Shown: positions 7,158 through 51,186 of the stretch, one piece after another
Layout of the letters: every line of letters begins with the position of its first letter
Numbering within the stretch: position 1 is the first letter of the stretch
Source of the DNA: Xestospongia bergquistia
Taxonomy: Eukaryota > Porifera > Demospongiae > Haplosclerida > Petrosiidae
Reading direction: 5' to 3'
NCBI GenBank assembly: GCA_963965975.1
Contig: OZ014412.1
Location: 4,280,501-4,344,500 of the forward strand
Length of the DNA stretch: 64,000 nt
The notes under the pieces: generated by a model
The model's input: the letters and a program-made list of their open reading frames with translations, nothing else
Told to the model about the DNA's origin: nothing
The model's database searches: none
Position numbers and translations under genes: made by a program

Positions 7158-10100
7158 ATGAGAAAGTAAGAGATTGATATTTACATATTTTAACTATGAT
7201 GTTAATTTAAAGTACTATTACTGTCACAACATTATTCTTTCTTCATGTTGGTAAGTGTATATTATATAACTGATTATATTGAGTCTGATCCTGTTGTGAG
7301 GCTATGGCTCACTAGACTAGATAACTCTTATTTCAGTCTTCTTGTAGTAGCTGCAGCTGATATCTTCACTATTGTACCAGAGACACAATATGTCTACCTC
7401 AATCATAATGTGACATTTGAGTGTGCTACCAACTTAACTGGATATACTCTAACATTTTCTTATGGTGGAGCAGTAGATGAAACATTGAACCCAACTAATC
7501 TACCTGATGGTGGTATAAAAGTCACAACAACTTTCATTGTAACTCATTCACTCAATGGTACTAGTGTTAGATGTCACGCTGATGATAATGATAATTCATT
7601 TATATCTACTTCAAAAGTATATGCTTATGCTCAAGGTCTGTATATTGATATCTTAATACACAAGGATGCTATTGATATCTTAATACAAACCAGGTCCTCC
7701 TGAAGCTGTCTACGATCTCCAAGGATATCAGTTAGATTATTGTTGTATTGTCTTCTTCTGGTCTCCTCCATTCACATTAGGACAGTTAAGTGTGTGGTAT
7801 CAAGTGACATTAAGTGTAGGAGAAGAAGTGATGTCACCAGAAGTAATCTATACTACTAACTACACTTATTGTCCTATGGACCTAACTAATGGAGAATATA
7901 GACTTAATATTACTACAATCAATGGGGCAGGGACTGGAATATGGAATAGTAATACTACATTATATAAAACAGGTAATATATATGAAATAGTTCAGTTAAT
8001 AACAATAGATTTATTTATAGTTCCTAAACTGTTGTGTAGTAGTATTATCGTTTCAATCTGTTATAATACATTATAATAACTAATATTACATTCAGATTCA
8101 ATGACTTCATCCTTTATACTCTGACCTTGTACTCTGACCTCTACTTAATAGTGTTAAAAGCAAGATGACATATAAGTACACTATTTATTTTCTATTCACA
8201 GTTTACACACTAAATGTTAATTACTATAATGACATGATTTATTGGCAAAATAACAAGTGGACCTATTACTTTAAATTACCAGTAAGTGTCACATGATCTG
8301 TTGATATGTCACATGACTTACACTCTTACAGTCCACTCAACTCTGTACTCAACCTATTATGAATACAATAGTGATGAGTTGTAATTTAAAGAACTCTTCT
8401 AATTGTTATAACAGTACTAATGTTACTATTATCACTGACTCTAATGGATATAAGACTATAATATCAGTAATTGATCTTCTTCCTAGAGAGAAGTTCAATA
8501 CATTTCTATACTTACAATATAAGAGTAGACAGATATTTCAAACTACTCCAGTAGTTACAAGTAAGTATATTATATGTGTTTGTACATATTATTTATAGTT
8601 TGTTTATAGGTACTCATGATCTACAAGGTATCAATGTTTGGAATACTTCAGATAATGTCCTGTGTCTTCAATTTAAACTTGTTCGTGACAGACAAATAAC
8701 TGAACTACATCTAGATATGAGAAATGGAGATAAACATTATAATGAGGTTGTCACTAACATAACACACTCCCACTTTGATCAATGTTTCAATGATATACCT
8801 CCTGGTAATAATTGGACATTATATGTATGTGATGGAGTACTACCTAATGTCAATGATACATGTTCTAATCCAGCTGTTATATTAACTGATATAAGCATTG
8901 GTAGCAAAGTACATATAGAACCTTCTAGATCATCTACTATGATATCTAGAGTTTCATATAGTACTATTCAGATATCTACTTCACCAGGTAAGTTAGGAAA
9001 ATAAACACGTAATATTAAAGAAAAAGTTTATAATATGCAACATTATCTCTAGTCTCATTTATAGCTATTATGAATATATCAACACCTGTTACACCTGTTA
9101 CAAAGACTGGACTCAATATAAGGAAAGTGATAGGAATTGCTGTTGGGGTAATTGTTGTCATTTTTATTGGTAAAAATTACTAATAATAATAATGCTAATG
9201 TTATTAATTATTAATCACTTATAGTAGCTCTTATTTTTATCATTGGTGTGTTGATAAAAAAAAATTCAAGAAGTAAGTTTGTAATATTTACTGATACTAA
9301 TAATAATAATGATATAAATATTATCATACTTTAGAACAAAATGTGTTGTCTTTAAATGTCCCCAATGAACTAAGATATTGTACAATACAACAATACAATA
9401 CTCGGGAAAGTTCTAACTCCTCTGACTCAAATAATTCACCACAATTAACAGAAATGGTCACAATCAATCAAGATAGAAATATAAGATCTGATGGTTCTTC
9501 TCCAATTACTACTGATATGGTATTAGTTAATAATGATTAATGCTATCGTCTAATATTTCAATCTCAGGAACCACAGATAAAGAGTTCTTTCACTAGTAAT
9601 CCGATACCAACACCTGTAGAAAGTGATTCTCATAAGGTACAGTATGTCCTTATTGTAACTATATGTTATCAACTATACTCTATTTCAATAGTCTGCTGTA
9701 GTTTATATTGAAGTTGAAGAAGTAAGAAAAAGACCAAATCCAGCAGCTGGACTACAATCTGAAGTCCAATATTCTAAAATTGCATTCCAACCATGTAATA
9801 TACATACATAATTAAATTATTTATAAGATTACTTAATTTTTAGTAAACAGTAAAATTTTAAATAAACCACCATATCAGAAAGAACTCAAAGAGTTGATTA
9901 CATCAAAAGTAGCACATAAATGGTTTCCTATTGGTATTGGACTTGGAATGAGTGGAGAACAACTTGAAGAAATCCGAGAAAATTCCAATGATATTCCTGA
10001 CCGTTGCCTTGGTAACTTATTCTATGAATGGGAACGGAACCCTCACAAAGACAAACCATTTACTTGGAGCACTCTCCTTAAAGTACTGAGGTCTGTTAAA

Positions 10101-10160
10101 GTTGGAGAGAACTCTTTTGCAAATGAACTGGAGGAACAACTTAATCAATATGACAAATAA
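7158..10160 (+). CDS. R1: Ig-FN3 receptor with ITIM-like motifs and Death domain
   Basis: Thirteen exons give a 705-residue frame: 7158-7165, 7213-7250, 7357-7635, 7694-7972, 8202-8281, 8332-8560, 8610-8987, 9065-9169, 9225-9272, 9335-9519, 9568-9636, 9692-9794, 9844-10160. Signal peptide about 1-15 (TITVTTLFFLHV); Ig-like 16-108 (Cys in VTFECATN and VRCHADD; no core Trp seen); FN3 109-201 (FFWSPPF, YRLNITTINGAG); D3 202-304; D4 305-430 ([18 protein letters not shown]); TM about 452-475 (GIAVGVIVVIFIG). The tail has VVYIEV (Tyr 571) and VQYSKI (Tyr 593), both fitting the V-x-Y-x-x-[VI] ITIM pattern, then a Death domain about 610-705 (WFPIGIGLGMSGEQLEEI, WSTLLKVLRSV). It should sit at the plasma membrane, with SH2 phosphatases/kinases and Death adaptors as family-level partners. 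No ligand can be read. The hand-built exon chain keeps frame throughout. Exon 10 could instead read on to a TAA at 9538, giving a form without ITIM and Death parts. Confidence 0.85.
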
Positions 10161-12610: not shown

Positions 12611-12700
12611 TGGGGTGTGGCTACTTTAAGCAAAATATAGTACTTAACAAGCAAACAAACTCTATGAAGTAATTTGTACTGGTATTATATCTAACTAATA

Positions 12701-14747
12701 TCAGTTATGCTGTGATAGTACAGCATAGGCTGGACATTCACTTGTTATTGGGTCCGTTATAATATTTTCACGTTGTGAGCCTGTGACCTGTTGAATTGGT
12801 ATCATTTCATAAACTTCAACAACAGCTTCACCATCACTATTGGCACCTAATTTAATATAATTTAATTTAATTTATAATATGAGACATGATAAAATAACTC
12901 ACTCTGCTTTTTTCGATGTTTATAACAATATAGTGATGTAACTATAATGTTTGCAATTAAAGATGCCATCATAATAATCACAGTAGTAGTAAACAAGGTA
13001 ATAAAGGTGGCTGGTATTGGTATATGATAGAAGAGATGTATCAAGAAATGTACTTACTACTGAAAGTATCAATTGAACTGGAATTAGGTGGTAAGCCAAT
13101 GTTACACAATGAAGAAGACATAGCTGAAAAAAGGAATTTAATACTGGAATTAATTCTAATAATATAATAACCATTGTCTTCAATGATACAATAGATTGCA
13201 TATTGCGTACTTGATGTTGTAACTATGATCTCCTGATGCAATGATGTCTTCCTACTAATCTCATCAGTTATGGGCTCTGTTAGAAAATTCTTGATCTCAT
13301 TTACTATACTTACTCCATACAATATAACAGCTGGATTATGACATGATGTACTGTACACATTATCTAGTGGTCCATCACAAGCAGATATAGTCCAGTTATT
13401 ACCAGTAGGAATATCACTAACACAATGATTAAAATATAACATATTATGACGAGGTATATCATAATGTAATATGGTAGTAGTATCTTCTATATAGAGATGA
13501 ACTAGACATGTTTCACTTCCAATAATAAAGTTATATTGAAGACATAAACTGTTATCAGAGATATTGACAATAGACAGATCTAATAGATCATGAGTACCTA
13601 TTGTATTTAGTTATAATGAGGTGATAAATATAAATATTTGACATACTTGTCTTAAATATATCTGATAAAAACACTTGACCACTGTTATATACTACATACA
13701 ATAGTGTAGTGTAGTATTTATATGGATCAAGTCTCATTGTAGCTATCACAGTAATATTGGATAAAGTGTTACTAATTGTCACATTATGTTGTGATAATGA
13801 AGCATTGAAGCAGACATTTTGTGAATCACAGCTCATTGTCACTACTTCTTTCAATGATAAACTACATAATTGTTCAGACTACAAACAAATAGAATATTGT
13901 CACTATTGTATGAATAAACATACCAATAATATAACATGATACTTCCAATATTGATCATTACGGACAGTCACTGGAAACTTGTAGATAGTGTCAATTTTAT
14001 TATTTGCTTTAAAAAAATTACTAACTTAAATGTTCTTGCCATAATTGCATTCATTACCTATCATATATAATGTGGTATTACTGTTCCATATTCCAATCCC
14101 TGCTCCATTGATTGTAGTAATATTAAGTCTATATTCTCCATTAGTTAGGTCAATAGGACAATAAGTGTAGTTAGTAGTATAGATTACTTCTGATGACAAC
14201 ACTTCTTCTCCTACACTTAATGTCACTTGATACCACACAATTAGCTGTCCTAATGTGAATGGAGGAGACCAGGAGAAGACAATACAACAATGATCTAACT
14301 GATATCCTTGGAGATCAGAAACTGTTTCAGGAGGACCTTATTTGAGTAAAAAATTTTAGATTATTTTTCATCATTACTTACCTTGTGCATAAGCATACAC
14401 AAACAATGTAAAAAGGCTATTCACATTGTCATCAGCTATGCACCTCACACTAGTACCATTATTAGCACTAGTTAGTACGAATGTTGTTGTGATCTTTATA
14501 CCACCACCAGGTAGATTAGTTTCTTTGAAAGTTTGGTCTATAGATCCACTAAAAGCAAACAAAAGACTATATCCGCTAAGGTTGGTAGCACACTCAAATG
14601 TTACATTGTGATTGAGGTAGACATATTGTGTCTCTGGAACAATGGCAAATATTGCTAGAGCACTACTATAAATTGAATAGTAATTGCTACTTAAGATCAT
14701 ATACCTGATACATAAGATGGAAGCAGCAGAAATAAAATAAAAATCAT
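12701..14747 (-). CDS. R2: class II Ig-FN3 receptor with short tyrosine-motif tail
   Basis: Nine minus-strand exons give 538 residues: 14705-14747, 14382-14654, 14058-14336, 13924-14006, 13647-13878, 13211-13597, 13058-13123, 12903-13010, 12701-12846. Signal peptide (IFILFLLLPSYVS); Ig-like (IVPETQYVYLNHNVTFEC); FN3 (PPF, WYQVTLSVGEE, YRLNITTING); D3 (two exons, phase 0 between); D4 (CVSDIPTGNNWTISACDG, HNPAVILYG); short Ser-rich stalk; TM (FITLFTTTVIIMMASLIANIIV). The 48-residue tail holds EVYEMI and CPAYAVLSQHN at the very C-terminus: two Y-x-x-[IL] sites, ITAM/ITIM-related but with non-canonical residues two before Tyr. No Death domain. All phases agree. Convergent with R1, divergent from R3. 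Paralogue R5 is its duplicate. Function is inferred to be a cell-surface signalling receptor. Confidence 0.85.
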
Positions 14748-15469
14748 TAAGCTTAGCCAATGCAATATCCCAAGGTTATAAATCACGTTAGATTCTTCTG
14801 CGTGTGAAAATCAGTTCAATAACACTGTTGCTGAGCAGACCCCGATAAAAGGGTTCCGTTACAAGATGAATTTCGTTGAAATCACATCTCCATGGTGACT
14901 GATTGTTGTAAACACCACGACTTTAGGCTTGGTCAATTCAACTGAAAGAAGTGCTGGTGAGTAAATCACGAAATCACAGTCAAATTAAATAGCATAATAT
15001 TTGTTGTTGTTCTTAATAATAATAATAATTATAACAATGTTTTAATGTATCGTTATGTTTGGCGTGAACACTCGCGTAATAATTAATCATACTACGACTT
15101 TAGACAATGCGCTTAATTAGTCTTGCGAGGCCAGACGTTTGACAGTTGCGCGATAATGTATTTGTGCTAATGTAGTATTTATATTGAAACCAATGTTAAA
15201 TAAACATTTAACAGCCAACTCTTGTGGCTTAAGCATTGCTGATGTGACAGTCCATGTAAAGCAAATGGATGCATGTGTGTGTGTTAAAGGATTGACCAAC
15301 CTTTTCAGAAGCCTTTTAAACCAGGCCAACGTTTGCAATCAGTCATTAACATAAATACATTTTCATCTTAAGAAGAATGCATTTGGAGTTTTTGAATGTA
15401 ATGAAATAAATTCATAATTTATACTGATATTATAGTTATTCATTATAGTTTGTTCAAGTCTAAATAACA
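14748..15469. promoter_or_regulatory. divergent promoter region between R2 and R3
   Basis: This 0.72-kb gap separates the two divergent receptor starts. A stretch near 14860-14985 (aaatcacatctccatggtgactgattg...) has a recognisable relative at 25660-25735 upstream of R7 (aaatctccatagtaacagattg...). Shared upstream sequence suggests a common control element; no TATA box was seen close to either start. Confidence 0.35.
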
Positions 15470-17688
15470 ATGATAGCAAGGTACGCCCACACATATTATT
15501 ATATATGCATAGAACACTCTATAGATCTACAACTACTTTGCTTATACCAGTACTTATATTCTTGATGATCCCACAAGTAGGTGGTAATAGCTTCTTCACT
15601 ATTGTACCAGAGACACAATATGTCTACCTCAATCATAATGTGACATTTGAGTGTGCTACAGACAGTACTAACTTAACTGGCCATGGATATACACTAACAT
15701 TTGCTTATCAAGGCACTGTAGATGCTACAGTTAATAATATTGTAATTGGTAATGTTATAAAGACAACAACAACATTTGTTGTATCTGAGGCTAACAACAG
15801 TACTGGTGTGAAATGTATAGCAAGTAATAACAATGTGGAGCCATTGGCAACTTCACTTGTGTATGCTTACGCTCAAGGTTAGTATTATTAATAATTATTT
15901 TTCTGCTAGGAAATCATAAGAATTTAGCATTAGAGTGCATTACTGTATGATGATAAATTTAGTTATCAATTTATTTTGGACATATGCATTCACACTAGGT
16001 CCTCCAGAAGCTGTCTCTAATCTCCAAGGATATCAGTTAGATCATTGTTGTATTGTCTTTTCCTGGTCTCCTCCATTCACATTAGGACAGTTAAGTGTGT
16101 GGTATCAAGTGACATTAAGTGTAGGAGAAGAAGTGATGACATCAAAAGTAATCTATACTACTAACTACACTTATTGTCCTATTGACCTAACTAATGGAGA
16201 ATATAAACTTAATATTACTACAATCAATGGAGCAGGGACTGGAATGTGGAAAAGTAAAATTATAACGTTTAAAACAGGTATGTCTCTGTTCCTATTTTGT
16301 TTGGTAATATGTATGTAGAATATACATGTGTATTTTTAACTTAGAGTGCAAACAAAAACCATGAAACAATAATGATCAATTTGATTTGTTTGTATATTAG
16401 TGCACTTTGAAATTTACAATTGTTACAGATCAGATACTTGATGTCTACTACTACAATCATATGACATATCGGATGAATAACTACTGGTGGTATTATTTTA
16501 AAATACCAGTAAGTAATCACATAATCAATTGATATGTCACATGACTATATTTTCATACAGTCCACTCAACTCTGTACTCAATCTATTATGAATACAACAG
16601 TGATGAGTTGTAACTTAAAGAATTCTTCTGATTGTTATAGCAGTACTAATGTTACTACCAACACTGACTCTAATGGAGATATAAATGTAATATCATGTAT
16701 AAATCTTTCTCTCCAAGAAAAATTCTATACGTGTGTATTTTTGTATTATGAATGTGGGCAAGCATTTCACACTATTCCTGTTAATACAAGTGAGGATTAT
16801 ATTGGTGCAATGCTGTTACATAAGCTTTCTGTAATACAGGTAGTCATGATCTTCAAAAGTTGAACATAATTGCTACTGCATGTGAAACAATGTGTCTTGA
16901 ATTACAATTTGTCAATGGTAGTACAATAAATACAGTATATTTTATCTTAGAGAATGATAATGCAAGCTATCCACTTGGCAATATATCTTATAACAATGAA
17001 CTTACCTTTACTAAATGTTTTAGTGATATACCTGCTAATGAGTGGACAGTATATACATGTTATGAAGCATTTAGTAATGGCTGTGCTAATCAAAGTGTAG
17101 CTGCTATAATATCTAATATTATGATACTGTCTTGTGATACATCGAGAAATGCAAAAAGTATTAGTAGTTACTCTGATAACACTGGTGATTTGTCTACTTC
17201 AACAGGTACATAATAATAGTAACTTGATTCAATTTCTGAATAAAGTAATATGATGCATAATTATGACTTTGAATTTATTCCTCATTTATATTGTGTAGAT
17301 GCAACTGTGAGTACGTTAACATCTCTAAAAAATCCCAATGAAAAGACTGGACTTAGTATATTCCTTATTATTGTGATCATAATCAGTGCAGTTGTGTTCA
17401 TATTAGCTATTTTGTTTGTAATAATTGGTAAGGACTTCTGACTATTGTTGACACTTATTTGTTTGTTTATATTATTGAACAGGTTTAGTTATAGCAAGAA
17501 AACAAAAAAAAGGTATGTCAACAATGTTATTATCAGTCTATGTTACTATATATAAAAATTTTTGATTAATTTTTTTAAATCCTGATACAGCTACCATAGT
17601 TCCTGAGCTATTTAAAAATTGGTTTAATCAGCTAGCTAGAAGAAGTCATTGCATCAAAGCTTCTGATTTGACAAAGAAGTTCAAATAG
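15470..17688 (+). CDS. R3: Ig-FN3 receptor with very short basic tail
   Basis: Nine exons give 524 residues: 15470-15480, 15525-15877, 15999-16277, 16429-16508, 16561-16789, 16840-17205, 17299-17427, 17483-17512, 17591-17688. Unlike R1, signal peptide (TTLLIPVLIFLMIPQVGG) and Ig-like domain share one exon. FN3 (VFSWSPPFTLGQLSVWYQ); D3 (WWYYFKIP, then NSSDCYSSTNVT); D4 is diverged (CFSDIPANEWTVYTCYEA) and lacks the usual GNNW; TM FLIIVIIISAVVFILAILFVII. The tail is about 43 residues, basic (ARKQKKA; ARRSHC; DLTKKFK), without tyrosine motif or Death domain. The first exon codes only MIA plus two bases of the next codon, the same minimal-start design as R1 and R7. A polyadenylation word aataaa follows near 17817. 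Possibly a decoy or adaptor-dependent partner of the other classes. Confidence 0.82.
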
Positions 17689-17841
17689 CTCTTTAGACTC
17701 AAAACTCCATGCATACCTTACAGCAGTATCCAGAAGCATCAAAATAATCTTTGGATAATTATAACCTTGTTACTTTAATTATATCCCTTTCAAGTCTACA
17801 TGTGTACATCAACTAAATAAATCTTTGAGTTTATTCTATAT

Positions 17842-17872
<31 letters not shown>

Positions 17873-18069
17873 ACCAGTGTGATTATATAGCACTTTTTTT
17901 AATTTTGGAACAATAATATTTGCTTTAATTTTATGATTAATTTATGATTTTTTAGTTAAAGTATGCATTATCTATATAAGTATGCATTATCTATAAACAG
18001 AGTATATACCAAAACTAAGAGCATATAATTTTTATTTTTAGTAATTTTTAAATATAACATTTGTGACAA
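17689..18069. other. R3 3' flank with (TG)n repeat
   Basis: Holds a likely polyadenylation word at about 17817 and a (tg)n microsatellite at about 17847-17872. The left edge of the second copy of the R1-R2 block lies just downstream at about 18090. Confidence 0.5.
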
Positions 18070-20152
18070 ATGTCGCCAAAAGACTACAGACTAGATAACT
18101 CTTATTTCAGTCTTCTTGTAGTAGCTGCAGCTGGTATCTTCACTATTGTACCAGAGACACAATATGTCTACCTCAATCATAATGTGACATTTGAGTGTGC
18201 TACTAATTTAACTGGATATAGTCTCTCATTTAACCACATCTTTGGTGGTGGATCTATAACTCCAACATCTAAACAAACTAATCTACCTAATGGTGGTATA
18301 AAGGTCACAACAACCTTCATCGTAACAAGTGCTAACAATGGTACTGGTGTAAGATTCCATGCTGAAAATGTTGATACTAATATACTTATATATTCTTCAA
18401 AAGTATATGCTTATGCTCAAGGTCTGTATGTAGTATTTATGTTAATATTTTAATACAAACCAGGTCCTCCTGGAGCAGTCTATGATCTCCAAAGATCTCA
18501 GTTAGATCATTGTTGTATTGTCTTCTCCTGGTCTCCTCCATTCACATTAGGACAGATAAGTGTGTGGTATCAAGTGACATTAAATGTAGGAAGAAAAGTG
18601 ATGTCATCAGAAGTAATCTATACTACTAACTACACTTATTGTCCTATTGACCTAACTAATGGAGAATATAGACTTAATATTACTACAATCAATGGAGCAG
18701 GGACTTGAATATTGAACAGTAACACAACAATGTTTAAAACAGGTAATATATATCAGATAGTTCCGTTAACAACAATAGATTTAATCTTAGTTCCTAAACT
18801 ATTGAATAGTATAGAAATATCATTTCAATTTGTTGTGATACATTAGAATAACTAATATTACATTCAGATTCAATGACTTCATCCTTATACTTTGACCTTT
18901 ACTTCAACCTCTTAACAGCAAGATGACGTACAAGTATGTTATTTATTTCTATTCGTAGTTCATACACTAAATGTGGTTTACTACAATTACATGAGTTATC
19001 GGCAAAATAACAAATGGACCTATTACTTTAAATTACCAGTAAGTGATCACATGATTTATTAATATGTCACATGACTTATTGTCTTACAGTCCACTCAATT
19101 CTGTACTCAACCTTTTATGAATACAACAATGATGAGTTGTAATTTATTGTTATAACCGTACTAATGTTACTATTATCACTGACTCTAATGGATATAAGAC
19201 TATAATATCAGTAATTGATCTTCCTCCTAGAGAGAAGTTCAATACATTTGTATACTTACAATATAAGAGTAGACAGATATTTCAAACTACTCCAGTAGTT
19301 ACCAGTAAGTATATTATATGTGTTTGTATATATTATTAATAGTTTATTTAAAGATGTGTTGTCTTTAAATGTCCCCAATGAACTAAGATATTGTACAATA
19401 CAACAATACAATACTCAGGAAAGTTCTAACTCCTCTGACTCAAATAATTCACCACAATTAACAGAAATGGTCACAAGCAATCAAAATAGAAATATAAGAT
19501 CTGATGGTTCTTCTCCAATTACTACTGATATGGTATTAGTTAATAATGATTAATGCTATCATCTAATATTTCAATCTCAGGAACCACAGATAAAGAGTTC
19601 TTTCAATAGTAATCCGATACAAACACCTGTAGAAAGTGATTCTCATAAGGTACAGTAATGTCCTTATTGTAACTATATGTTATCAACTATACTCTATTTC
19701 AATAGTCTGCTGTAGTTTATATTGAAGTTGAAGAAGTAAGAAAAAGACCAAATCCAGCTGCTGGACTACAATCTGAAGTCCAATATTCTAAAATTACATC
19801 CCAACCATGTAATATACATACATAATTAAATATTTATAAGATTATTTAATTTTTAGTAAACAGTAAAATTTTAAATAAACCACCATATCAGAAAGAACTC
19901 AAAGAGTTAGTCACAGCAAAAGTAGCACATAAATGGTTTCCTATTGGTATTGGACTTGGTATGAGTGGAGAACAACTTGAAGAAATACGAGAAAATTCCA
20001 ATGATATTCCTGACTGTTGCCTTGGTAACTTATTCTATGAATGGGAACAGAACCCTCACGAAGACAAACCATTTACTTGGAGCACTCTCCTTAAAGTACT
20101 GAGATCTGTTTTTTGCAAATGAACTGCAGGAACAACTTTTTCAATGTGACAT
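18070..20152 (+). pseudogene. R4: broken copy of R1 (ITIM/Death type)
   Basis: Homologous to R1 exon by exon: Ig 18131-18421, FN3 18464-18742, D3a 18959-19038, D3b 19090-19304, then tail exons about 19354-19532, 19581-19649, 19706-19808 and Death 19857-20152. Breaks: the signal-peptide exons are missing because similarity to R1 begins inside its intron (actagataactcttatttcag); FN3 has an in-frame TGA at 18706-18708; D3b lacks about 14 bp near 19146, shifting frame; one deletion of about 0.7 kb removed D4 and the TM exons (junction about 19350); the Death exon lost about 17-20 bp near 20110. The two ITIM-like motifs (VVYIEV, VQYSKI) remain intact in sequence. It cannot encode a membrane receptor as it stands. 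Confidence 0.85.
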
Positions 20153-22416: not shown

Positions 22417-24533
22417 TCAGTTATGCTGTGATAATACAGCATATGCTGGACATTGACTTGTTATTGGGTCTGTGACAATATTTTCATATTGAGGGCCTGT
22501 GACATGTTGAATTGGTATCATTTCATAAACTTCAACAACAGCTTCGCTATCACTGTTGGCACCTAATTTAAATAGGATTATTACATGGGGCATGACAAAA
22601 CAACTCACTCTGTTTTATTCTATGTTTATAACAATATAGCGATGTAACTATAATGTTTGCAAGTAGAGATGCCATCATAATAATCCCAGTAGCAGTAAGT
22701 AAGGTAATTAACATAGCTGGTATTGGTATATGATAGAAGAGACTCATGTATCAAGAAATATACTTACTACTAAAGTTATCAATGTTGTCAATTGAACTGG
22801 AATTTATTGGTATGTTAGTGTTACATTTACACAATGAAGAAGATATATCTGAAAAAACAATGTAATACTGAAATTAATTCTAAATAACATAATAACTATT
22901 ACCTTCTATTGATATTTTAGGTTGTGTATTCTCAATACTTGTTGTGACTATGATCTCCTGATGCAATGATGTCTTCCTATTAATCTCATTAGTTATGGGC
23001 ATTGTTATGGATTTCTTGATCTCATTTGCTATATTTACTCCATACAATATAACAGCTGGGTTATGACATGATGTACTGTACACATTATCTAGTGGTCCAT
23101 CACAAGCAGATATAGTCCAATTATTACCAGTAGGAATATCACTAATACAATGATTAAAATATAACATATTATGACGAGGTATATCATAATGTAATATGGT
23201 AGTAGTATCTTCTATATAGAGATGAACTAGACATGTTTCACTTCCAATAATAAAGTTATATTGAAGACATAAACTGTTATCAGAGATATTGACAATAGAC
23301 AGATCTAGTAGATCATGAGTACCTATTGTATTTAGTTATAATGAGATGATAAATATAAATATTTGACATACTTGTCTTAAATATATCTGATAGAAACACT
23401 TGACCACTGTTATACACTACATACAGTAGTGTAGTGTAGTATTTATATGGATCAAGTCTCATTGTAGCTATTACAGTAATATTGGACAAAGTGTTATCGA
23501 TTGTCACATTATGTTGTGATATTGAAGCATTAAAGCAGACATTTTGTGAATCACAGCTCATTGTAATTATATCTTCGAATGGCAAATTACATAGTTTTTC
23601 AGACTGCAAACAAATACAATATTGTCATTATTGTATTGTTAAACATACCAATAATATAATGTGATACTTCCAATATTGATGATTACGAATAGTTACTGTA
23701 AACTTGTAGATAGTGTTGATTTTATTATTTGCTTAAAAGAAATTACTAACTTAAACATTCTTTTAATAATAATATTAATAACCTGTTTCATATAATGTAG
23801 TATTACTGTTCCATATTCCAGTCCCTGCTCCATTCATTGTAGTAATATTAAGTCTATATTCTCCATTAGTTAGGTCAATAGGACAATAAGTGTAGTTTGT
23901 AGTATAGATTACTTCTGATGACATCACTTCATCTCTTAAACTTAATGTCACTTGATACCACACACTTAACTGTCCTAATGTGAATGGAGGAGACCAAGAG
24001 AAGACAATACAACAATGATCTAACTGATATCCTTGGAGATCAGAGACAGCTCCAGGAGGTCCTAAACATTTAAAAGTAAATCATTGTTCATTTATTTCAC
24101 TATGAGATCCTGACAACATTAATAACAATTTTACACTGACCTTGAGCATAAACATATGCCAATAAAGTAAATATTGTCATATTAATGTTGTCATCAGCTA
24201 TACATCTCACATCAGTGCCATTAATAGTATACATCACAGTGAAAATAGTTGTGATAATTTTACCACCACCTGGTAGATCAGTTTCCTTAAATATTACATC
24301 TACTGATCCACCATAAGCAAATGATAAACTATATCCAGTTAAGTTAGTAGCACACTCAAATGTCACATTATGATTAAGGTAGACATATTGTGTCTCTGGT
24401 ACAATAGTGAAGATACCTATAAGTGATTAAAATTAACTATAATTAACAACTGCTACAACTTACCTAATACACAAGACACTGATGACAAAAAAATTGTAAG
24501 ACTTAGCTTGTAGCTAGACATCATCAAAAACAT
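22417..24533 (-). CDS. R5: class II receptor, paralogue of R2
   Basis: Nine exons give 564 residues: 24464-24533, 24141-24416, 23783-24061, 23649-23731, 23372-23603, 22903-23322, 22768-22848, 22609-22716, 22417-22562. Signal peptide (KLSLTIFLSSVSCVLG); Ig-like; FN3 (WYQVTLSLRDEVMSSEV); D3 (NVCFNASISQHNVTI); D4 (CISDIPTGNNWTISACDG); a stalk with two extra Cys; TM (MLITLLTATGIIMMASLLANIIV). The tail keeps EVYEMI and CPAYAVLSQHN and adds PQYENI, making three tyrosine sites. D4 uses a donor about 33 nt further on than R2. The start could be one of two nearby ATGs (24531-24533 or 24513-24515). Part of the second copy of the R1-R2 block: while R4 decayed, R5 stayed open. Confidence 0.85.
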
Positions 24534-24838
24534 GACTTCGTAATATTTACCAGTAAATACTGACTATATTGGGAATATTTTTCACAATACTCTAAAGTAT
24601 AGAGTGATTGTTCCTTTGTGTAGACCAATTTTATTTTGAAAACTTTGTGACTCTTTCAAAGTTCGTGTTTTTCTATTATTTGGTTGTATCCTCCTGAGGC
24701 TAACCAGTATTTCATAAATTATAATGTTGTACTTATACTAGACTAACTACTGGCACAGTATAATTATTGTACCACATTCTTCTTTCATGTACATATTTAT
24801 TTCATATACACATATATATTGCCCAGTAAAGCTATAGA
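24534..24838. promoter_or_regulatory. divergent upstream region between R5 and R6
   Basis: Contains the first copy (about 24708-24796) of a repeat also found at 25478-25568, beginning gtatttcataaattataatg. The two copies lie upstream of R6 and R7 respectively, so this is probably the old R7 promoter region duplicated with the gene. Confidence 0.4.
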
Positions 24839-29780: not shown

Positions 29781-29810
29781 TTTTATTTAAAACTTTTTGT
29801 GTCTGAGGCA

Positions 29811-33559: not shown

Positions 33560-36500
33560 AAGTGTCACCGCTAAATACATGGTAATGGTTACGAAGCCCT
33601 TTGTAGCGTTTTTAGTGGACTATTGTACCTTGTCCTGATGATATCTTGCCCTATAGGTAAGTGATTCAGTTAATTACTGATAAATGATTTTGATTTAATT
33701 TTAGTTAAGAAGAATGTGTAAGTTAGCCATTCTATGAGCTTGACTAAAGCTGGCTTGTAACATAAATGTTTATACTATATCTATGTTCATAAGATTGTTT
33801 AGCATGTGATGGTGATATTGTTTTGGGTGTGTGTATGCATAGATTAATAACATAAACTATCAAAGATCAGATCCAAGATAGTGATATTCAAAGTTCCCCA
33901 ATATCTCTAAAATTTACTAATTTCCAAGCTTAGTTTCAGATTGAGATAGTGTACAAGACTTCTGCCTTGTTTAAGACCTCTCAGAGTCATTTATCCATGT
34001 GCCACATTGACAAATAGCATCCCCAGTTTGGTACCTGTTTGCCTACTCACATTTGCCTACTAAATGTTCAAAAGTTCAATTCACCTAATTACTAAAATAA
34101 CCTAATGTTACAATTATTATGAGAAGTCTATAGCCTCACAAAAGAGGAAGAAGCATGTAGCTCCCACTTGAAAGCTGTTACAGTATTAGACAACCCACAT
34201 TAATCAGCTCGTGACCATATTTTGAATCTTAATAATTATGAAACACTATAAATAGAATTAAGCATTTCTGGAAGGTCATGATGTTTTCTTGCTATATCAT
34301 ATAGTGCATATACTTTCCTCCTTTGTGAGTCAATAGAATCCTGTTGTTACTGATAGTTGAAATTTATTTATTATTTAACAAGTAATGAAAAATAGAGACC
34401 TATTAATGCATACTTGTATAATACAAGGCATTATGTCTGATATTCTAGAAATGTAGTTTTCTAGTGAAATGATGTTTCCAAGAGAATGAGTCTTTATGTT
34501 AGTTATTTTTGTTCCTTGTCGCTTGTTCTCAATGTTCTCCTAGATTAACGTACCCCCAATGCCAACTGTTGTAGCTCCACTTTTGTTTTTTGTTCATTTT
34601 GAATTGCTTCAACAAATTGATACAATTTTGGATGTGCTTTTGTAACCATATGTTTAAATTGGCTATACCTGGAACATTTAAGACTTAATCAAATGAAGAT
34701 ACCAGACTACCTTTCACCATGAGGTGTGGTATGGTAATCTAGGGATGAGTCTAAAAAGCTTTACATTGCTCATGTATATAACTTAAATGCTGGTTATACA
34801 AGAAGGATTACAACATCATCTCTTATAGAGATGTTGTTGTAATCCTTCTTGTGTAGTTGTGATACTATAATTTATTTATAATACAAAAATTGAATAGATA
34901 TTGATTTGACTGGTATAACTATAGTTTCTACAAGTCTCATTATTTATATTAAGGTACTTATTATAAGTTAATGTTCTCTTTTTATAGCTGACAGTAGTCT
35001 CTTCACTATTGTACCTGAGACACAATATGTCTACCTCAATCATAATGTGACATTTGAGTGTGCTACTAACTTAACTGGATATACTTTAACATTTTCTTAT
35101 GGTGGATCTATAGCAGTAATTGTTGAAGAAACTAATTTACCAGATGGTGGTATAAAAGTCTCAACTACCTTTACTGTAACTAATTCACTCAATGGTATTA
35201 GTGTGAGATGCCATGCTGATGATGATATGAATCCACTTGTATCTACTAGAACTTCAAAAGTATATGCTTATGCTCAAGGTCTGAATATAATTGGATGTAT
35301 AATTGGATGTATATTAATATTATCAATACAAACTAGGTCCTCCTGGAGCTCTCTCTGATCTCCAACGATATCAGTTAGATCATTGTTATATTGTCTTCTC
35401 CTGGTCTCCTCCATTCATAGGACAGTTAAGTGAGGGATATCGAGTGACCTCAATAGGTAAGTCAAGAGTAATAAGTATAAAATATAATGTAAGATAGTTC
35501 TATATTCTTGGTTGACCTATTGTCCCTTGTTTGTAGATATCATGAGGACTTCTACTCCCTCTATAACTGCTAGTCCTGATGATAAAGGATTTAAAATAGG
35601 ATCTGTTATCATTGATGTTAGTATTGGTAAGTATTATGAAGTATTAACTATTAATAACATCAATTTGCTCAGTGGCATTGGTTACAGTATTGTCTATATG
35701 TCTTGTGAAAAAGAGACATTCATACAGAAACAGTAAGTTGACATAATTATTATAATGATGTAATACTTAATAATATTGTAAGAGATAAAAAGAATAGCAT
35801 CAATGTGAATAAGATTAAAGTTTTTTAAGTTTAAAAGTTCATATTATGTATGCAATGATAAGTTTATTCTTCCTCTGGATCAGGACAGATAGACTAAGAG
35901 TCTCATCAATATTATAATCTAGTCTTTTACTGTGCAAGACAGATACTGTATATTTGCATATTTTTAGTGCAAAAACTTAATTTTTGTACCAAAAAAATAC
36001 TGAATAAACTCTTGAGTTTAGATTGTTACTTGGGTCATGTTACATCGCAAACCAACCAAATGTAATATCGAGATAGAGTCGTCATAGATCTTCGTAGACA
36101 TCAATGCTCTATAGTCATTAGACTAGTTCAGTTTCAATATTTTATTTTTGCTTTGTGGTTTTATTTGCAGTATATTTTTGACCTCAGTGCAAATAATAGT
36201 CTACAAACATATCCCTTAAAGGGTAGAAGTCATCACTAAAAATGTACTTCTTCAATTTGTGCCTAAGAATACAAAGCATCACTTTTACTACAATAAATTT
36301 TAAATGAATCTTTGCACTATTAGGCAGCCATATTACATAGGAAATCAACGTGAGACTTATTTCATACAACAACCTTATATTGGTGACCTTAGTTTGGCAG
36401 TAAACAAATGACGGATTTGTTATGCTAGCATATCAATTCAGACTAACAAGTTAAACTACAAAAATACAAATGTCTTAACTATAGTATCAGCCTGTTCTGC

Positions 36501-40802: not shown

Positions 40803-43423
40803 TCAATGATGTTCTTGTATTACAGGTATCATAGCATATGCAGGACACTCTTTTAATTTTATTGGATCAACGTTTTCATATTGTGGACCTGTGACTGCTT
40901 CAATAGGAGACATCTCATGATCAACAGTAACTTCATTAGTAGTTCCTTAGTAACAACAGATCATAATAAGTTTACATTATGATGATAAAGAATGAACTAA
41001 CTTTGTGATTTCCTATATTTATGTCGACAATATATTGTTATAATGACAATATTTCCCAATAGAGAGATCATCATGATAAATGTAATAACAGTGACTATAG
41101 ACAATAGAATACAAAGATCGATGAGCACAACAATAACAATGGATGAAAAGAGAAATTGATTACTTATACTCTTCATACATTTTATTACAAAACATAATAA
41201 TGTATGAAGGTTTTCTACATTATATACAGCAAATAGGTCGTCTCCAACAAAATAATCTTTACATGTACCAACTCACCACTGACATAGAAAGAAGTCATAG
41301 CATCATTAGTTAAATCATTTGATTGTATAGTCACTGAAGTATTATTAGTAGTAGTACACTGTGTTACTATAAGGACTATAAACAATAAAAATAATACAGT
41401 TAATATAAACTAGTCTTACTTTCTGTAGATATAATAGTATGTGTAGTTAATGTCATTGATGTTGGAGTTATAACTCCATCCTGTGATGATGGTATGCATG
41501 TCTCACTGCTTATCTCGTTTACTATATTTACTCCATATAATATAACAGCTGGATTATGACATGATGCATTATCTAGTGGTTCATCACAAGCAGATATAGT
41601 CCAGTTATTACCAGTAGGAATATCACTAATACAATGATTAAAATATAACATATTATGACGAGGTATATCATAATGTAATATGGTAGTAGTATCCTCTATA
41701 TAGAGATGAACTAGACATGTTTCACTTCCAATAATAAAGTTATATTGAAGACATAAACTGTTATCAGAGATATTGATAATAGACAGATCTAATAGATCAT
41801 GAGTACCTATATGTTTCAAGATAGACAGTAGTTATTATTATTAGATAGAATACTCACTAGTTGTAAATACATCTGTCATAAATGTTCTATTGCCATAGTC
41901 TATATAAATTATAGTATTATAATGTTTGTATGAATCCAATTTCATATCAGCTGTAATATTTCCATTTGATATTGTCATATTTGCTTGTAATGATGATGCA
42001 GAGAAGCAGTTATTATGTACATCACAACTTGTAACAGTTACTTCTACTAATGGAATAGTACATAGTTGATTAACCTGTTAATAAACATATTATACACTAT
42101 CTAGTAACAGTTGGGACTAAATTACTAACTGATAACATGAAATGGAAAGTCCAATATTGTTGAGCACGAATTACATTTGTTTTTTTAAAGAAAACAACAA
42201 TTTTATTTACTAGAGAACAAAACAGTTTCATTAAATCAAAATTGTACACACAATGCAAGAAAACATACCAGTTGTAAACATGACAACGATATTGGATTCT
42301 ATTCCAGTCCCTGCTCCATTGATTGTAGTAATATTAAGTCTATATTCTCCATTAGTTAGGTCAATAGGACAATAAGTGTAGTTAGTAGTATAGATTACTT
42401 CTGACAACATCACTTCTTCTCCTTTACATAATGTCACTTGATACCACACACTTAACTGTCCTAATGTGAATGGAGGAAACCAGGAGAAGACAATACAACA
42501 ACGATCTAACTGATATCCTTGGAGATCATAGACAGCTCCAGGAGGACCTGAATTGAGTGATGAATATTAACAAATTAGTGTAGAATTCACTATATTTAGT
42601 CTAGCAAGCCAGATCCAGCCCCTAAGATGATCAGCCACGGACGGGCAAGGATCAGGGAAACTGTAATAGACTTAATGCATGAAAACTGAGATTACAGAAC
42701 ATTCAATTATGTTATGTGCTTTTATCGCAACACTTAACATTAGTGAACAACCTTAAAACTTTAAGCTTGTTTATTATACTCAAGCTTTTCTTATAAGAGC
42801 TAGTTAGTAGCTAACATTTTCAGTCCCATCTTTGGTAGTCATTTCATGTTCTGCCTCTGCAAATCGTACATGCACATTACATCATGTACAACACCATATC
42901 TCACACTAAATTTTTAGTCCCACCCATCAAACAAGAACTATTATAGAATTAACCAGATCCATCTATTGTTCATTCATAAGAGTTAGGTCTGGGCTTGCTT
43001 GACCAACAATATTCAGACCTTGAGTATAAGCATATACTTTTGAAGTAGATATAAGTGGATTCATATCATCATCAGCATGACATCTCACACTAGTACCATT
43101 GAGTGAATGAGTTACAATGAAGGTTGTTGTGACCTTTACACCACCATCAGGTAGACTAGCTTCTTTAACAGTTGCATCTACTGCTCCACCATAAGAAAAT
43201 GTTAGAGTATATCCAGTTAAGTTGGTAGCACATTCAAATGTCACATTATGATTGAGATAGATATATTGTTTCTCTGGTACAATAGTGAAGATACCTATAA
43301 TTGTATATAATAATAGATTATAATCATAAGTTAAATAAAAAAAATATTGATACATATGTACTTACTAGAAAAACAAGGTAGAATGTGCCAGGCGGCTAAC
43401 AAATTAAAGGAATTTCTTACCAT
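40803..43423 (-). CDS. R10: class II Ig-FN3 receptor
   Basis: Nine exons give 543 residues: 43366-43423, 43019-43294, 42269-42547, 42130-42209, 41858-42074, 41420-41806, 41277-41375, 41002-41094, 40803-40945. Signal peptide (FNLLAAWHILPCFS); Ig-like (IVPEKQYIYLNHNVTFEC, VRCHADDDMN); FN3 with an altered last strand (GTGIESNIVVMFTTG); D3 (NNCFSASSLQANMTI); D4 (CISDIPTGNNWTISACDE); a Thr/Asn-rich stalk; TM (TVITFIMMISLLGNIVIITIYC). The tail has PQYENV and CPAYAMIPVIQEHH. This is the only member of the R8a/R8b/R10 subfamily that is open throughout. Divergent from R11, from which a helicase-bearing element separates it. Confidence 0.83.
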
Positions 43424-46395: not shown

Positions 46396-49300
46396 ATGAA
46401 GCAAAGCTTAGAAGTCTATTGTAGAGTCTTTATTACTTTTTTTGGACTATTGTTCCTTTCCAAAATCATATCTTATGCTGCAGGTAAGTGATTCAGTTAA
46501 TTATTGATATAAATGATTTTGATTTTAGTTTTCGTTAAAAAGAATGTGTAAGTCAGCCGTTTTATGAGCTTGCTGGCTTGTAACATAAATGTTAGACTAT
46601 ATCTCAGCTAATAAAGTTACTTAGTATGTGGTGCTGATATTGTATTGGATATGTGTATGCTTAGATTAATAAGATAAACTATGAATCATTTGAAGGATCA
46701 GACCCAAGATAATGATATCTTTAAAATTTACTAATTTCCAAGATTAGTTTCAGACTGAGATAGTGTATGAGACTTCTGCCTTGTTTAGGACCCTTCAAAG
46801 TCATTTATCCATGTGTCATATTGACAAGTAGTACCCCCAGTTTGATACCTGTTTGCCTACTAAATGTTCAAAAGGTCAATTCACCTACTTCCTAAAATAA
46901 CCTAGCATTACAATCATTACCAGATTCCCGTAGCCTCACAAAAGAGGAAGGAGCATGCAACTCTCTCTTCAAAGCTGTTATGTATTAGACAACCTACATT
47001 AATCAGTTCATGACCATATTTCGAATTTCAATAATTATGAAATGCTACAAAATTGTACAAATAGAATTAAACATTTCCAGAAGGTCATGGTGTTTTGCTT
47101 GCTATATCATGTAGTTGCATATATTTCCCTCCTTTGTGAGTCTATAGGATTTACCAAGTAATGAAAAATAAAGACCTATTGATGCGTACTTGTATAATAT
47201 AAGGTATTGTGTCTGATATCTAGAAATATAGTCCTCTAGTGAAATGATGTTTCCAAGAGAATGAGTCTTTAACTCGGTTATTTTGTGTTCCTTGTTGATT
47301 GTACTCAATGTTCTCCTAGATTCATGTACCCCCAATGCCAACTGTTGTAGCTCCACTTTTATTACATTTTCTTTGTTTTGAGTTGCTCTAACAAATTGAT
47401 ACAATTTTGGATGTGCTTTTGTAACCATATGTTTAAATTGGCTATACCTGGAACATTAAGACTTAATCAAATGAAGATACCAGACTACCTTTCACCATGT
47501 GGAGTGGTACGGTAATCTAGGGATGACATTAAAAAGCTTTACATTGCTAATGTATATAATCTTTTGACAGTTTAAATTTATTGTTTGTGGGCCTTGTTTT
47601 GTTTATCAGTCAACAGAAAAAGGTTTAGTTCAGTAAAGTTTTTCTTATTCATTTTGACATCTCACAATTCAACATTCGATCCATAGTATTATTTTGAAAT
47701 ATTAACGCATACCAACTATATAAATCCACTATCCTTCATTTCAGTATGTCTTTAACTTAAAGGCTGGTTCACATAACAACGCAAAGCCTTGCATGACGTC
47801 GCACTGCGTACATATGTCAATTTATGAACACTGTGTACACGATGCACAAACATGACATGTTGCAATGCGAGGATAGGATCCATTTCTATCTTAATGTTCC
47901 AAGCAATGCGTTCAGCCAATCAAATTTTAATAACCACATTTTTTGACACATTAATGTTTTCTATGGCAGACAAGAAACTAATTGAGACAGTTCATTGTTT
48001 CCCTTGCTTGTAGCAAGTATCTATACTATGTTTGAGTTGATTTTAATTTTATTCATTATTTGTTCACGTACATGTCATGTGAACACACCACGTTTTCTCT
48101 CATGTTTGTGAAGATGCCAAAAGGAAAGAGACTGAGGTCATGAACAAAGGAGGTTGTTGCGAAGTCTATGACTACTTCGAGGAACTCACCAGGTGTAAAC
48201 AGACTCAAGATCTTTGAAACAATTCCTGTTAGTTGATGATTTTGATCATGAAACCATCAGACAAAAATGTACTACCTCTATATGGCATTCTCAGTCTTCG
48301 TTCTTTATTAAAAGGTTTTTTTTAGAACCTTGGTGGCTTTATAGCTGCCTTAAATTGCAAAAGACAATACCTGATCATTATTTTAATAATAGTAATTGTT
48401 ATAATAGAACATCTGTTCATATAAATAGAACTGTAATTTTAAATTACCATAATATTAATAATGGTGAGGGTGGGGTTTTAGTTCACATGTGTCCTCATGT
48501 TTTTATGAACAGCATTGACACTACACTACATGATCCATTGCCAAAAATGCAACGTGACACATATACAAGCAGTAGTTTTGTAGTTTTTATTGTATTATAA
48601 ATATTCAAATATTAACACATACCAACTGTACAAAGCTGCTATCCTTCTTTCCAGTATGTCTTTAACTTTAAATGTAATGAAAACCATATCTGTTTAATAA
48701 TTAATAATTTTTGGATTATCTTCACTGTATAGTGTAAATAATAACAGAAATTTTAGTTTTGCTTTTTGGCAAATTTGAAAAAGATTATTATTGTCAACCA
48801 AAGATAATTTTGAAGGAATTGTGTGGTAGCAAAAGACAGTAAAAGAATAGGAATAAAATATGGTGTGTTTGTGGAAGCTATGACATGTCAACAGCATGTA
48901 AAAGAAATCTTTTCTTCCTTGGAGTAATTATAGTATTGTGATTTCCATTGAAATCATTTAATCAAAATCAAATCCTTGTAACCTGTTGTCATGTCATGTC
49001 TGAAACTGGAGATGTTATTTTAATCTTGCTTGTGTAGTTGTAGTAATCTAATTTATAAGTTATTATGTGCATTGACAGATTTATTTGACTGGTATAGCTA
49101 TGGCTTCTACAAGTCTCATTGTTTATTTCAAACCAATTTATACAATTTAATGTTTTCTTTTTATAGCTGACAGTATTTTCACTATTGTACCAGAGACACA
49201 ATATGTCTACCTCAATCATAATGTGACATTTGAGTGTGCTACTAACTTAACTGGATATACTCTTGAATTTGAGTATGGTGGATCTATAGATGTAACATTA

Positions 49301-51186
49301 AAGCAAACTAATCTACCTGATGGTGGTGTAAAGATCACAACAACATTCATTGTAACAAGTACTAACAATGGTACTACTATAAGATGCCATGCTGATAATG
49401 ATGGTACAAATCAACATACATATTCTTCAAAAGTACCCGTTTATGCTCAAGGTCAGTATATAGTTAGGTATATGTTAATATTCTTAACATGAACCAGACC
49501 CTCCTGGAGCTGTCTTTGATTTCCAAGGATATCAGTTAGATGATTGTTGTATTGTCTTCTCCTGGTCTCCTCCATTTACATTAGGACAGTTAAATGTGTG
49601 GTATCAAGTGACATTAAGTGTAGGAGAAGAAGTGATGCCATCAGAAGTAATCTATATTATTAACTACACTTATTGTCCTATTGACCTAACTAATGGAGAA
49701 TATAGACTTAATATTACTACAATCAATGGAGCAGGGACTGGAATATGGAACAGTAATACTACAATGTTTAAAACAAGTAAATAATCATAATATAATTATA
49801 TCAGGTACATGTAGTTCTAAGAAACCCTCTTAATAGTGGACACTGTTTTAAAATGTCCTCAATAAAGAGGTCAAATAATACACTAAAGTATTAGTATGTG
49901 ACAAAAGCCAGTTTCTCAAATATTAAGTGTGTCCTTAATTTAAACACGAGATGTTTAACCACTTTTCTCCACCTATTTATTAATATATATATGACTCTTA
50001 AGAAGACCAAATTGTAAATGGTTATTTGTTTGTATTTCTTTGAGTAGTTTATATTACTTTATTACTTTACTAATTGAAAATATGTTTCCAGATCAGACAC
50101 TTAATCCCTCCTATAACAATAACATCACTTCTCGTCAAAATAACAAGTGGACCTATTACTTTAAATTACCAGTAAGTGTCACATGATCTGTTGATACGTC
50201 ACATGACTTACTCTCTTACTTCAGCTCTGTATTCAACCTATTATCAATACAACAGTAATGAGTTGTAATTTAAAGAACTCTTCTGATTGTTATAACAGTA
50301 CTAATGTTATTATTATCACTGACTTTAATGGAAATAAAACCATTGTCTCAAAGATAGATCTACCTCCTAAAGAGAAATTTACTACATGTATTTTCTTGGA
50401 GTATGAGAGTGGACAGATATTTCAAACTACTCCAGTAAATACCAGTAAGTATATTGTATGTGTTTGTATATATTATTAATAGTTTGTTTAAAGGTACTCA
50501 TGATCTACAAGGTATCACCGTTTGGAATACTTCAGATAATGTCCTATGTCTTCAATTTAAACTTGTTCATGGCAGACACATAACTGAACTACATCTATAT
50601 ATGAGAAATGAATATAAATATTATAATTCAACCGTTTCCCACATAAGACATCTTCGTTTTGAGCATTGTTTAAGTGATATACCTCCTGGTAATAACTGGA
50701 CATTATATGTATGTGATGGAGTCCTACCTAATGTCAGTGATACATGTTCTAATCCAGCTGTTATATTAACTGATATTAATATCACTGGTAGAATATCTAT
50801 AGAACCTTCTACTACAATAATTAGAACTTTATCTAGTAGTTGGAAACCTACTGTAACAACCACTGCTAGTGGGTCTTCCAATTTGAAAGGTAAGTAAACA
50901 CTACAATTTATTGTTACAATGTTATTGATGTGTCTACCATAGAAATTGCAATTGGAGTAGGAGTAGCAGTAGGACTTATTATTGCAGTTATTTTTATTCT
51001 TATTGTAATGCTGGTTATATGGAAGAAATGTCCAAGTAAGTTAATATTATAGTTTACAATTTAGATTGAAATGTATCATCTTCAGAAATTGCTAAAAAGC
51101 CATGTACTGAAAAGTGTTGTTCTTTAATAATGACAAAGCTGGTTGTTACATCGAACGGAGGAATTAAAGGGATGATTAAAAGCTGA
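46396..51186 (+). CDS. R11: Ig-FN3 receptor with short Cys/Lys tail
   Basis: Eight exons give 513 residues: 46396-46483 (29-residue signal peptide, FITFFGLLFLSKIISYAA), 49167-49451 (Ig-like), 49498-49776 (FN3), 50092-50171 and 50225-50444 (D3), 50494-50889 (D4; [18 protein letters not shown]), 50943-51035 (TM; VGVAVGLIIAVIFILIVMLVIWKK), 51086-51186 (tail). The tail of about 33 residues is CTEKCCS followed by basic residues; no tyrosine motif. A 2.7-kb first intron contains transposon debris. Ectodomain exons are closest to R1, while the tail is unrelated to R1. Splicing past 51186 to the half Death domain at 53 kb would be needed for a class I product; no joining exon was found. Confidence 0.82.
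47698..48672. mobile_element. insertion bounded by direct repeats, with transposase trace
   Basis: A repeat of about 65 bp (starts aatattaacgcataccaac, 47698-47765) recurs at 48607-48672. Between the copies the plus strand reads TTSRNSPGVNRLKIFETIP at about 48165-48220, then after a shift VDDFDHETIRQK. The DDFD-x-x-x-IRR/K context resembles an N-terminal segment seen in DDE-type transposon proteins; this is from memory of the family, not a search. The rest is decayed. Confidence 0.35.

Follow-up and report, generated by a model that had tools for sequence, protein, structure and literature searches.

The window analysed here, a 64,000-nucleotide stretch of the sponge Xestospongia bergquistia (contig OZ014412.1, here C2, positions 4,280,501-4,344,500), carries a cluster of receptor-like genes built on a common plan: an immunoglobulin-like (Ig) domain, a fibronectin type III (FN3) domain, two further domains (D3 and D4) and a single transmembrane (TM) segment, followed by tails of several types. 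Seven members are open and five are broken. In the assembly searched (146.5 Mb, 21 contigs), the Ig exon of the first plus-strand gene has at least 56 matches, 53 of them on C2 at 2.73-4.33 Mb, and the D4 exon at least 66, all 66 on C2 at 2.74-4.33 Mb, both counts being lower bounds that include fragments. Since these matches span 2.73-4.33 Mb, the window forms the upper end of a complex that extends over about 1.6 Mb. On C2 we read the window, 80 kb flanking it, 120 kb of a second cluster at 3.34-3.46 Mb (cluster B) and five shorter pieces, 48 kb in all, from 2.90-2.98 and 3.48-3.49 Mb. A previous sequence-only reading had described a family of open and broken copies with a shared ectodomain and TM and differing tails, expanded in copy number and accompanied by pseudogenes. 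The twelve members of the window, five of them broken, and the extent of the family over C2 agree with this description. A viral origin was rejected: an Ig-FN3 scan of viral contigs gave four pattern matches, none of which is a relative.

Two genes, alpha1 and beta1, were spliced. The alpha1 gene (7337..10160, plus strand) is open and consists of 11 exons in a single frame, with ten GT-AG introns (exons 7337-7635, 7694-7972, 8202-8281, 8332-8560, 8610-8987, 9053-9169, 9225-9272, 9335-9519, 9568-9636, 9692-9794 and 9844-10160). It splices to a frame of 700 residues that comprises the Ig, FN3, a short linker exon, D3, D4, the TM and a tail with a Death domain; the signal-peptide exon lies upstream and was not placed in this model. 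The open beta1 gene (12701..14775, minus strand; seven exons, all six introns GT-AG) shows the order Ig-FN3-linker-D3-D4-TM and ends in a short tail. For the other five open genes, the TM and tail exons were assigned by matching or by eye, and the ectodomain exons keep GT/AG at or near homologous positions.

Since Pfam gave no Ig match in the sequences scanned, the fold of this domain was predicted, and the Ig fold is assigned from the predicted structure. Compared by sequence with solved structures, the Ig-plus-FN3 part of alpha1 reached only E 0.42 and 0.77. The best Foldseek match of the ectodomain is RPTP-mu (E 1.9e-12), an Ig-FN3 adhesion receptor. This likeness of fold would suit multiplied adhesion or developmental receptors, resembling neural Ig-FN3 proteins, whose Death domain would serve cell turnover; UNC5 is indeed an Ig receptor with a Death domain. 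Nevertheless, adhesion receptors are usually single-copy and conserved, and the rapid turnover, the pseudogenes and the exon homogenised species-wide, described below, make such a role quite improbable.

A common face borne on different tails is observed for alpha1 and gamma3, the latter located at C2:4,276,286, just outside the window. The two genes are 94.4% identical, unbroken over 3,022 columns (window 6000..8991 against C2:4274905-4277900); the match starts at the edge of the compared piece and ends at 8991, just past the D4 exon donor (8988). The TM and tail exons of alpha1 have no match in gamma3, and the alignment picks up again only at 9809, where the gamma3 side is a decayed Death exon interrupted by a stop and a frameshift. 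Starting inside D4, gamma3 is instead 97.6% identical to gamma1 over 2.8 kb. Since gamma3 matches alpha1 up to D4 and gamma1 after it, the tail was exchanged at the D4/TM boundary, and the shared face with swapped tails supposed by the sequence-only reading is thereby documented. Downstream of each of two gamma genes lies a decayed Death exon that contains both a stop and a frameshift (C2:4251083-4251386 and 4279674-4279977); these exons are relics of the lost alpha tail.

To what extent the domains follow the tails was assessed on 24 named genes, exons covering 80% or less being dropped. The nearest neighbour carries the same tail type for 20 of 22 D4 exons and 18 of 21 D3 exons, for 12 of 21 Ig exons and for five of 20 FN3 exons. 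D3 and D4 for the most part stay with the tail (none of 2,000 permutations equally extreme), and FN3 identity is unlinked to tail type (permutation P 0.09). Ig exchanges across tail types are seen in alpha1-gamma3, alpha2-gamma2 (96%) and alpha1-beta4 (91% DNA identity).

Five tail types occur in or next to the window: the Death type, the short CxAYxx type, the multi-exon type of delta and two short tyrosine-free types (zeta and epsilon). The alpha1 tail carries LRYCTI, VVYIEV and VQYSKI, followed by the C-terminal Death domain (exon 9844..10160, plus strand). It contains three strict matches to the immunoreceptor tyrosine-based inhibitory motif (ITIM), a number reached by 0.1% of 5,000 shuffles; two of them stand in tandem, 22 residues apart, in the exon 9692..9794 (plus strand). 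The CxAYxx tails belong to the beta genes and to the related gamma genes, which end in ECDAYGVI. The short beta tail bears two YxxPhi tyrosines; that of beta1, about 50 residues long, contains YEMI and CPAYAVL. The tails differ as the sequence-only reading had claimed; the Death domain and the conserved short-tail counterpart did not figure in it. Sponges have expanded receptor tyrosine kinases, and a kinase tail was therefore considered for alpha. It was ruled out, as the tail is a Death domain instead.

Several lines of evidence bear on this domain. Pfam Death matches to the exon stay below the cut-off (E 0.044 for alpha1, 0.0089 for a cluster B copy and 0.054 for P0010, a relative from Amphimedon queenslandica). 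By sequence, the nearest solved structure to the alpha1 exon is CRADD (E 0.0055), and a profile of six Death exons performed more poorly than this single sequence (E 0.066). The AlphaFold (AF2) model is a helical bundle with a mean pLDDT of 84.5 in the best of five. In Foldseek, the best 30 of its 49 matches are all death domains, with probabilities of up to 1.00, and include FADD, Fas, RAIDD, ankyrins, TNFR1, RIPK1, DR3, p75 and p84; the top three are FADD entries (TM-score 0.65-0.71, probability 1.00). As modelled, the C-terminus of alpha is a Death fold. Seven Death exons at least 77% identical are found in the two clusters, including the shortened one of alpha2. Genome-wide, Death-domain-like exons gave at least 136 matches at E<=0.001 (150 of 642 candidates scored). 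No TIR match was obtained by Pfam among the proteins scanned.

The Death exons are constrained, with a summed ratio of replacement to silent change (dN/dS) of 0.27 and no pair among ten with dN > dS. This bears on the view that the complex is mostly a decaying tandem expansion with little function. The broken copies of the window would agree with decay; on the other hand, purifying selection on the Death exons, the kept splice sites and the conservation of tail motifs and architecture in another sponge leave this view scarcely credible.

This second sponge is Amphimedon queenslandica. Relatives were sought at E<=1e-3 among about 5.8 billion sequences, by a search that needs shared 5-residue words and scored about 8,000 candidates per query. 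With the alpha protein, 11 of 12 relatives are labelled Amphimedon queenslandica (34-44% identity), and with an Amphimedon member as query, 17 of 18; the exception, P0008, has an incomplete label. These labels support the sponge origin supposed by the sequence-only reading. Their annotations are mostly 'uncharacterized', 'Fibronectin type-III domain-containing' or 'Death domain-containing'. Both tail types recur among them. P0004, P0014, P0016 and P0019 end in QYEN[VL] or QYDNI and then KECAAYGVV (QYENV...KECAAYGVV in P0004), whereas P0010 and P0018 carry YSEI, YSRL, YSKL and YSVV together with a Death domain. In P0018, six YxxPhi motifs are present, a number reached by 0.02% of shuffles. Since both tail types exist in Amphimedon, the two outputs had already separated before the two sponges diverged. 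Furthermore, P0018 (LOC109585737) and P0014 (LOC109585739), whose LOC numbers are two apart, share the same longest contig (67,623 bases) and are, for these reasons, probably neighbours.

Comparison within and between the two species revealed that the ectodomain exons do not evolve in the same way. For FN3, the median protein identity is 85% among window copies (n=7), 94% within Amphimedon (n=8) and 47% between them; for Ig, the corresponding values are 70% (n=8), 63% (n=6) and 42%, P0002 and partial rows being excluded. The median dS of FN3 is 0.115 versus 0.336 for the adjoining Ig, and silent differences in the FN3 core fall to 0.03-0.09. Homogenisation of FN3 extends over both strands and over different tail types and clusters. 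This pattern fits exon-sized gene conversion, which would have acted separately in each species. The domains are shared as the sequence-only reading said; homogenisation at the level of the exon is an addition to it. A similar situation was noticed for the beta-type D4: nine such exons, in clusters 1 Mb apart (13293-13595, 23018-23320, 31738-32040 and 41511-41804 in the window, the others in cluster B), show silent differences of 0-0.17 per segment and 0.41 in the last five codons. Since these are few, this exon seems to be homogenised too, unlike the plus-type D4.

In the Ig domain, replacement change is highest at columns 37-48 and 85-96, the latter following the second cysteine, at the position of the FG loop, whereas the N-terminus shows dN/dS of 0.1-0.3. 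In the plus-type D4, five of 11 segments have dN/dS >1 (1.16-1.47). Pairs with dN > dS amount to 12 of 171 for Ig, 32 of 136 for FN3 and nine of 171 for D4. These pairs were restricted to stop-free copies covering at least 85% of the query (for Death, matches of at least 80 bits); D3 gave usable dS from 113 of 153 pairs, and in the sliding count synonymous changes were absent from three minus-type D4 windows and from one of plus type, which therefore gave no ratio. Strong positive selection is not supported by these data, and Ig and D4 display diversification without strong proof of it.

The copies follow each other on the strands as + - + + - + + - + - + over 7158..51186. Repeats spaced 9.66-10.01 kb apart and 91-98% identical are seen, some intergenic (93-97%) and some over tail exons. 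Because of this spacing, we conclude that a convergent two-gene module, with a plus-strand gene facing a minus-strand one, was duplicated in tandem. The alternating orientation reported by the sequence-only reading is thus real and originates from tandem copies of a convergent alpha(+)/beta(-) module. The same convergent pair recurs at C2 3.345, 3.388, 3.408 and 3.431 Mb, and also at 3.481 Mb, where the tail of the minus-strand partner was not seen. Among ten beta-strand copies in the stretches read, nine face a plus-strand member, the exception lying at 3.360 Mb, and this member is a Death-tail gene for seven of the ten, broken ones counted; in cluster B, the count passes over short minus-strand fragments of D4, linker or FN3 between partners.

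The remaining members of the window are arranged as follows. Upstream of alpha1 lies a broken gamma-type copy with a partial D4, a TM and a tail ...ECDAYGVI (2686..4281, plus strand). Zeta (15436..17688, plus strand) is open and combines the usual ectodomain order and a TM with a tyrosine-free short tail, read by eye. It is followed by alpha2 (18067..20110, plus strand), a broken Death-tail copy with a stop in FN3, a split D3, no D4 or TM found and a shortened Death exon. The open beta2 (22417..24411, minus strand) has an unmatched linker exon and a short tail with QYENI and CPAYAVL. Then come a broken Ig fragment (24830..25420, plus strand) and the open delta (25848..28580, plus strand), whose ectodomain precedes a tail of several small exons, read by eye, that includes NLQYASY. 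The beta3 remnants (28780..32067, minus strand) retain a D4 exon and a TM exon, with the short-tail exon present twice; Ig and FN3 were looked for there and not found. A further broken copy consists of an Ig exon and a truncated FN3 (34972..35494, plus strand). The open beta4 (40803..43361, minus strand; TM and tail junctions by eye) ends in PQYENV...KECPAYAMI, and the open epsilon (49151..51186, plus strand) carries an ectodomain, a TM and a tyrosine-free short tail, read by eye.

A second receptor family is interleaved with the first one. It was seen in the window (60451-60783 and 62673-62756, plus strand) and in other stretches read, and consists of an FN3 exon (WSPPFSLVSIPGYI...), a D4-like exon that has no Pfam match and a short tail ending in TTELEMKTCAAYGVI. 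This TTELEMKTCAAYGVI is the same terminal motif as in the gamma and beta tails and in Amphimedon KECAAYGVV, which suggests that one tail-binding partner may serve several receptor families.

Potential partners for the tyrosine motifs are encoded elsewhere in the genome. SH2 exons gave 81 matches genome-wide, with nine tandem pairs: six at C3:1.266-1.284 Mb and one each at C3:0.916, C7:8.319 and C6:0.200 Mb. Three of these places were fetched. Two of them, on C7 and C3, are single open frames identified by Pfam as SH2-SH2-phosphatase, and the C7 frame matches PTPN11 (SHP-2) with E 1e-196 over 517 residues; in the C6 copy, the SH2 domains lie in separate frames by Pfam, next to phosphatase-like frames recognised by eye. 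Given this tandem-SH2 set, machinery to read paired tyrosine motifs is present and probably multiplied. Indeed, SHP-2-like tandem-SH2 phosphatases seem to have multiplied (C3:1266387-1283528, C7:8319015-8319560 and C6:199640-200233), and the complete frame read from the C3:1266387-1283528 tandem cluster is a single open frame. Separately, a cluster of ten SH2 exons lies at C6:1622265-1697212; their open frames, about 400-500 residues long, may encode Src-type kinases.

Collectively, these data are best accounted for by a complex of paired Ig immune receptors with outputs through tyrosines and a Death domain, to which we assign a probability of roughly 0.6. The products would be displayed at the cell surface, with the N-terminal Ig as the likely binding face, borne on FN3, two further β-domains and a single TM. 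Closely similar faces lead either to a long ITIM-type and Death tail (alpha) or to a short YxxPhi tail (beta and gamma). A ligand bound to alpha would be expected to recruit SH2 proteins, such as SHP-type phosphatases and Src-type kinases, together with Death-domain adaptors, whereas the same event on beta or gamma would elicit tyrosine signalling only. Competition of alpha with beta or gamma for one ligand would determine the threshold of a cytotoxic or inflammatory response. Tandem duplication of the convergent alpha-beta module, gene conversion of exon size and tail exchange at D4/TM would renew the repertoire.

Several observations weigh against this interpretation. Among the seven open window genes, alpha1 alone has a Death tail. 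No strict ITIM occurs in the four short tails tested, so that the ITIM-type tails announced by the sequence-only reading hold for alpha and not for these four, and the YxxPhi count is unremarkable by shuffling in three of the four. The TMs of beta1 and gamma3, the two read, lack a charged residue for an adaptor bearing an immunoreceptor tyrosine-based activation motif (ITAM). Strict ITIMs are also absent from the Amphimedon Death-tail protein P0018, and the strict ITIM was consequently rejected as a cross-species hallmark. As for the Death model, the five AF2 models spread from pLDDT 84.5 to 50.4, and none of the 49 Foldseek matches reaches E 0.001 (best E 0.03). Summed dN/dS is <1 in every domain, the two variable Ig segments rise no further than about 1.1, and a value above 1 is likewise seen in one FN3 segment (1.25). 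Finally, Ig identity still tracks tail type (permutation P 0.001), which indicates that faces were exchanged between tail classes only in part.

What the receptors would recognise can be conceived in two ways. They could be microbe or symbiont receptors, that is, an expanded, germline-diversified innate family with no role in allorecognition. Innate families also expand as clusters with pseudogenes; a near-identical face on two outputs is, on the other hand, typical of self-ligand or decoy pairs and less so of pattern receptors. In a study of two sponges, genes with Ig or Death domains, one of them combining Ig and CARD, are differentially expressed after microbial cues (PMC6208332). We consider this alternative a serious one, somewhat short of even odds.

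The same paired receptors could, instead, form an allorecognition complex that decides on fusion or rejection, with a polymorphic self or homophilic ligand. This would correspond to the polymorphic locus, possibly for self/non-self, that the sequence-only reading put forward. The single-contig complex with its pseudogenes would suit this role, as would the variable Ig segments and the plus-type D4 segments, and the Death tail would be a natural effector of rejection. ITIM-type tails are likewise described for candidate allorecognition genes of Hydractinia and Botryllus in a 2025 review (PMC12065747). Against it, adhesion, apoptosis and aggregation-factor genes were not significantly enriched in the Amphimedon graft transcriptome as presented in the accessible text, and a word search of the main text of that paper retrieved no immunoglobulin, fibronectin, receptor or death domain (PMC5450542). 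On balance, an allorecognition role appears rather doubtful. A bolder version, which we hold to be somewhat less likely again, is a sponge histocompatibility complex: a polymorphic paired locus with a self-reading face on both tails, in which missing self would lead to cell death. If true, paired-receptor logic would be present in Porifera, and sponge graft studies would gain the gene system that they have lacked so far.

More generally, ITIM-type and Death outputs on a shared Ig face would bring ITIM logic into Porifera, where a single protein would link it with cell death. The 2025 review notes a lack of conservation among the candidate allorecognition proteins of sponges, cnidarians and ascidians, and a convergence on one and the same ITIM-type signalling in systems ranging from cnidarians to mammals (PMC12065747). 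When the literature was searched for a sponge ITIM, paired or Ig-FN3-Death receptor, none of the titles and abstract openings listed dealt with this family. The paired Ig receptor complex proposed here is a concrete single-chromosome locus, testable also in Amphimedon, which has the same family and where grafting is established.

Comparison with known systems shows which features are common and which are particular to the sponge family. TNF-type death receptors have a cytosolic Death domain in common with alpha, but not their cysteine-rich TNFR ectodomain, as that of alpha1 is composed of Ig-FN3-type β-domains. The sponge aggregation factor is characterised by Calx-beta, von Willebrand or Wreath domains; none of them matched in the scanned pieces, namely the alpha1 ectodomain and Death domain, four Amphimedon relatives and one further Death, Ig and FN3 exon each. 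Sponge Ig-TIR receptors and the Ig-CARD gene likewise join an Ig ectodomain to an immune signalling domain, though with TIR or CARD in place of ITIM and Death; Ig-TIR receptors number one to two genes per species, as opposed to a large complex here, and the text available to us does not mention a paired short-tail partner (PMC6208332). Hydractinia Alr and Botryllus FcoR are also invertebrate Ig-family clusters with ITIM or YxxPhi tails, and Botryllus has pairs of neighbouring allorecognition genes; in these systems, a genetic link to fusion is established, and a Death domain is not mentioned in the part of the review consulted (PMC12065747). The likeness to Alr put forward by the sequence-only reading is one of plan; at the sequence level, two protein searches of limited reach (about 8,000 candidates scored in each) revealed no relation to Alr or FcoR and listed no cnidarian relative.

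The Amphimedon queenslandica family (LOC109583743, LOC109585737, LOC109585739 and others) has the same Ig-FN3-D3-D4-TM order, the short YENV...CAAYGVV tail, the YxxPhi and Death tail and probable neighbours; it differs by its 34-44% identity and by having no strict ITIM in the single Death-tail protein tested. Finally, the vertebrate paired Ig receptors KIR, LILR/PIR and SIRP are clustered, bear near-identical faces on different tails, and turn over by duplication and conversion, all of which recalls the sponge family. Their ITIMs in one class have a parallel in the three strict matches of alpha1, though not in the Amphimedon counterpart P0018. We do not claim common descent. One sponge tail ends in a Death domain, and the short-tail class carries a YxxPhi of its own where the vertebrate activating members have a charged TM residue.

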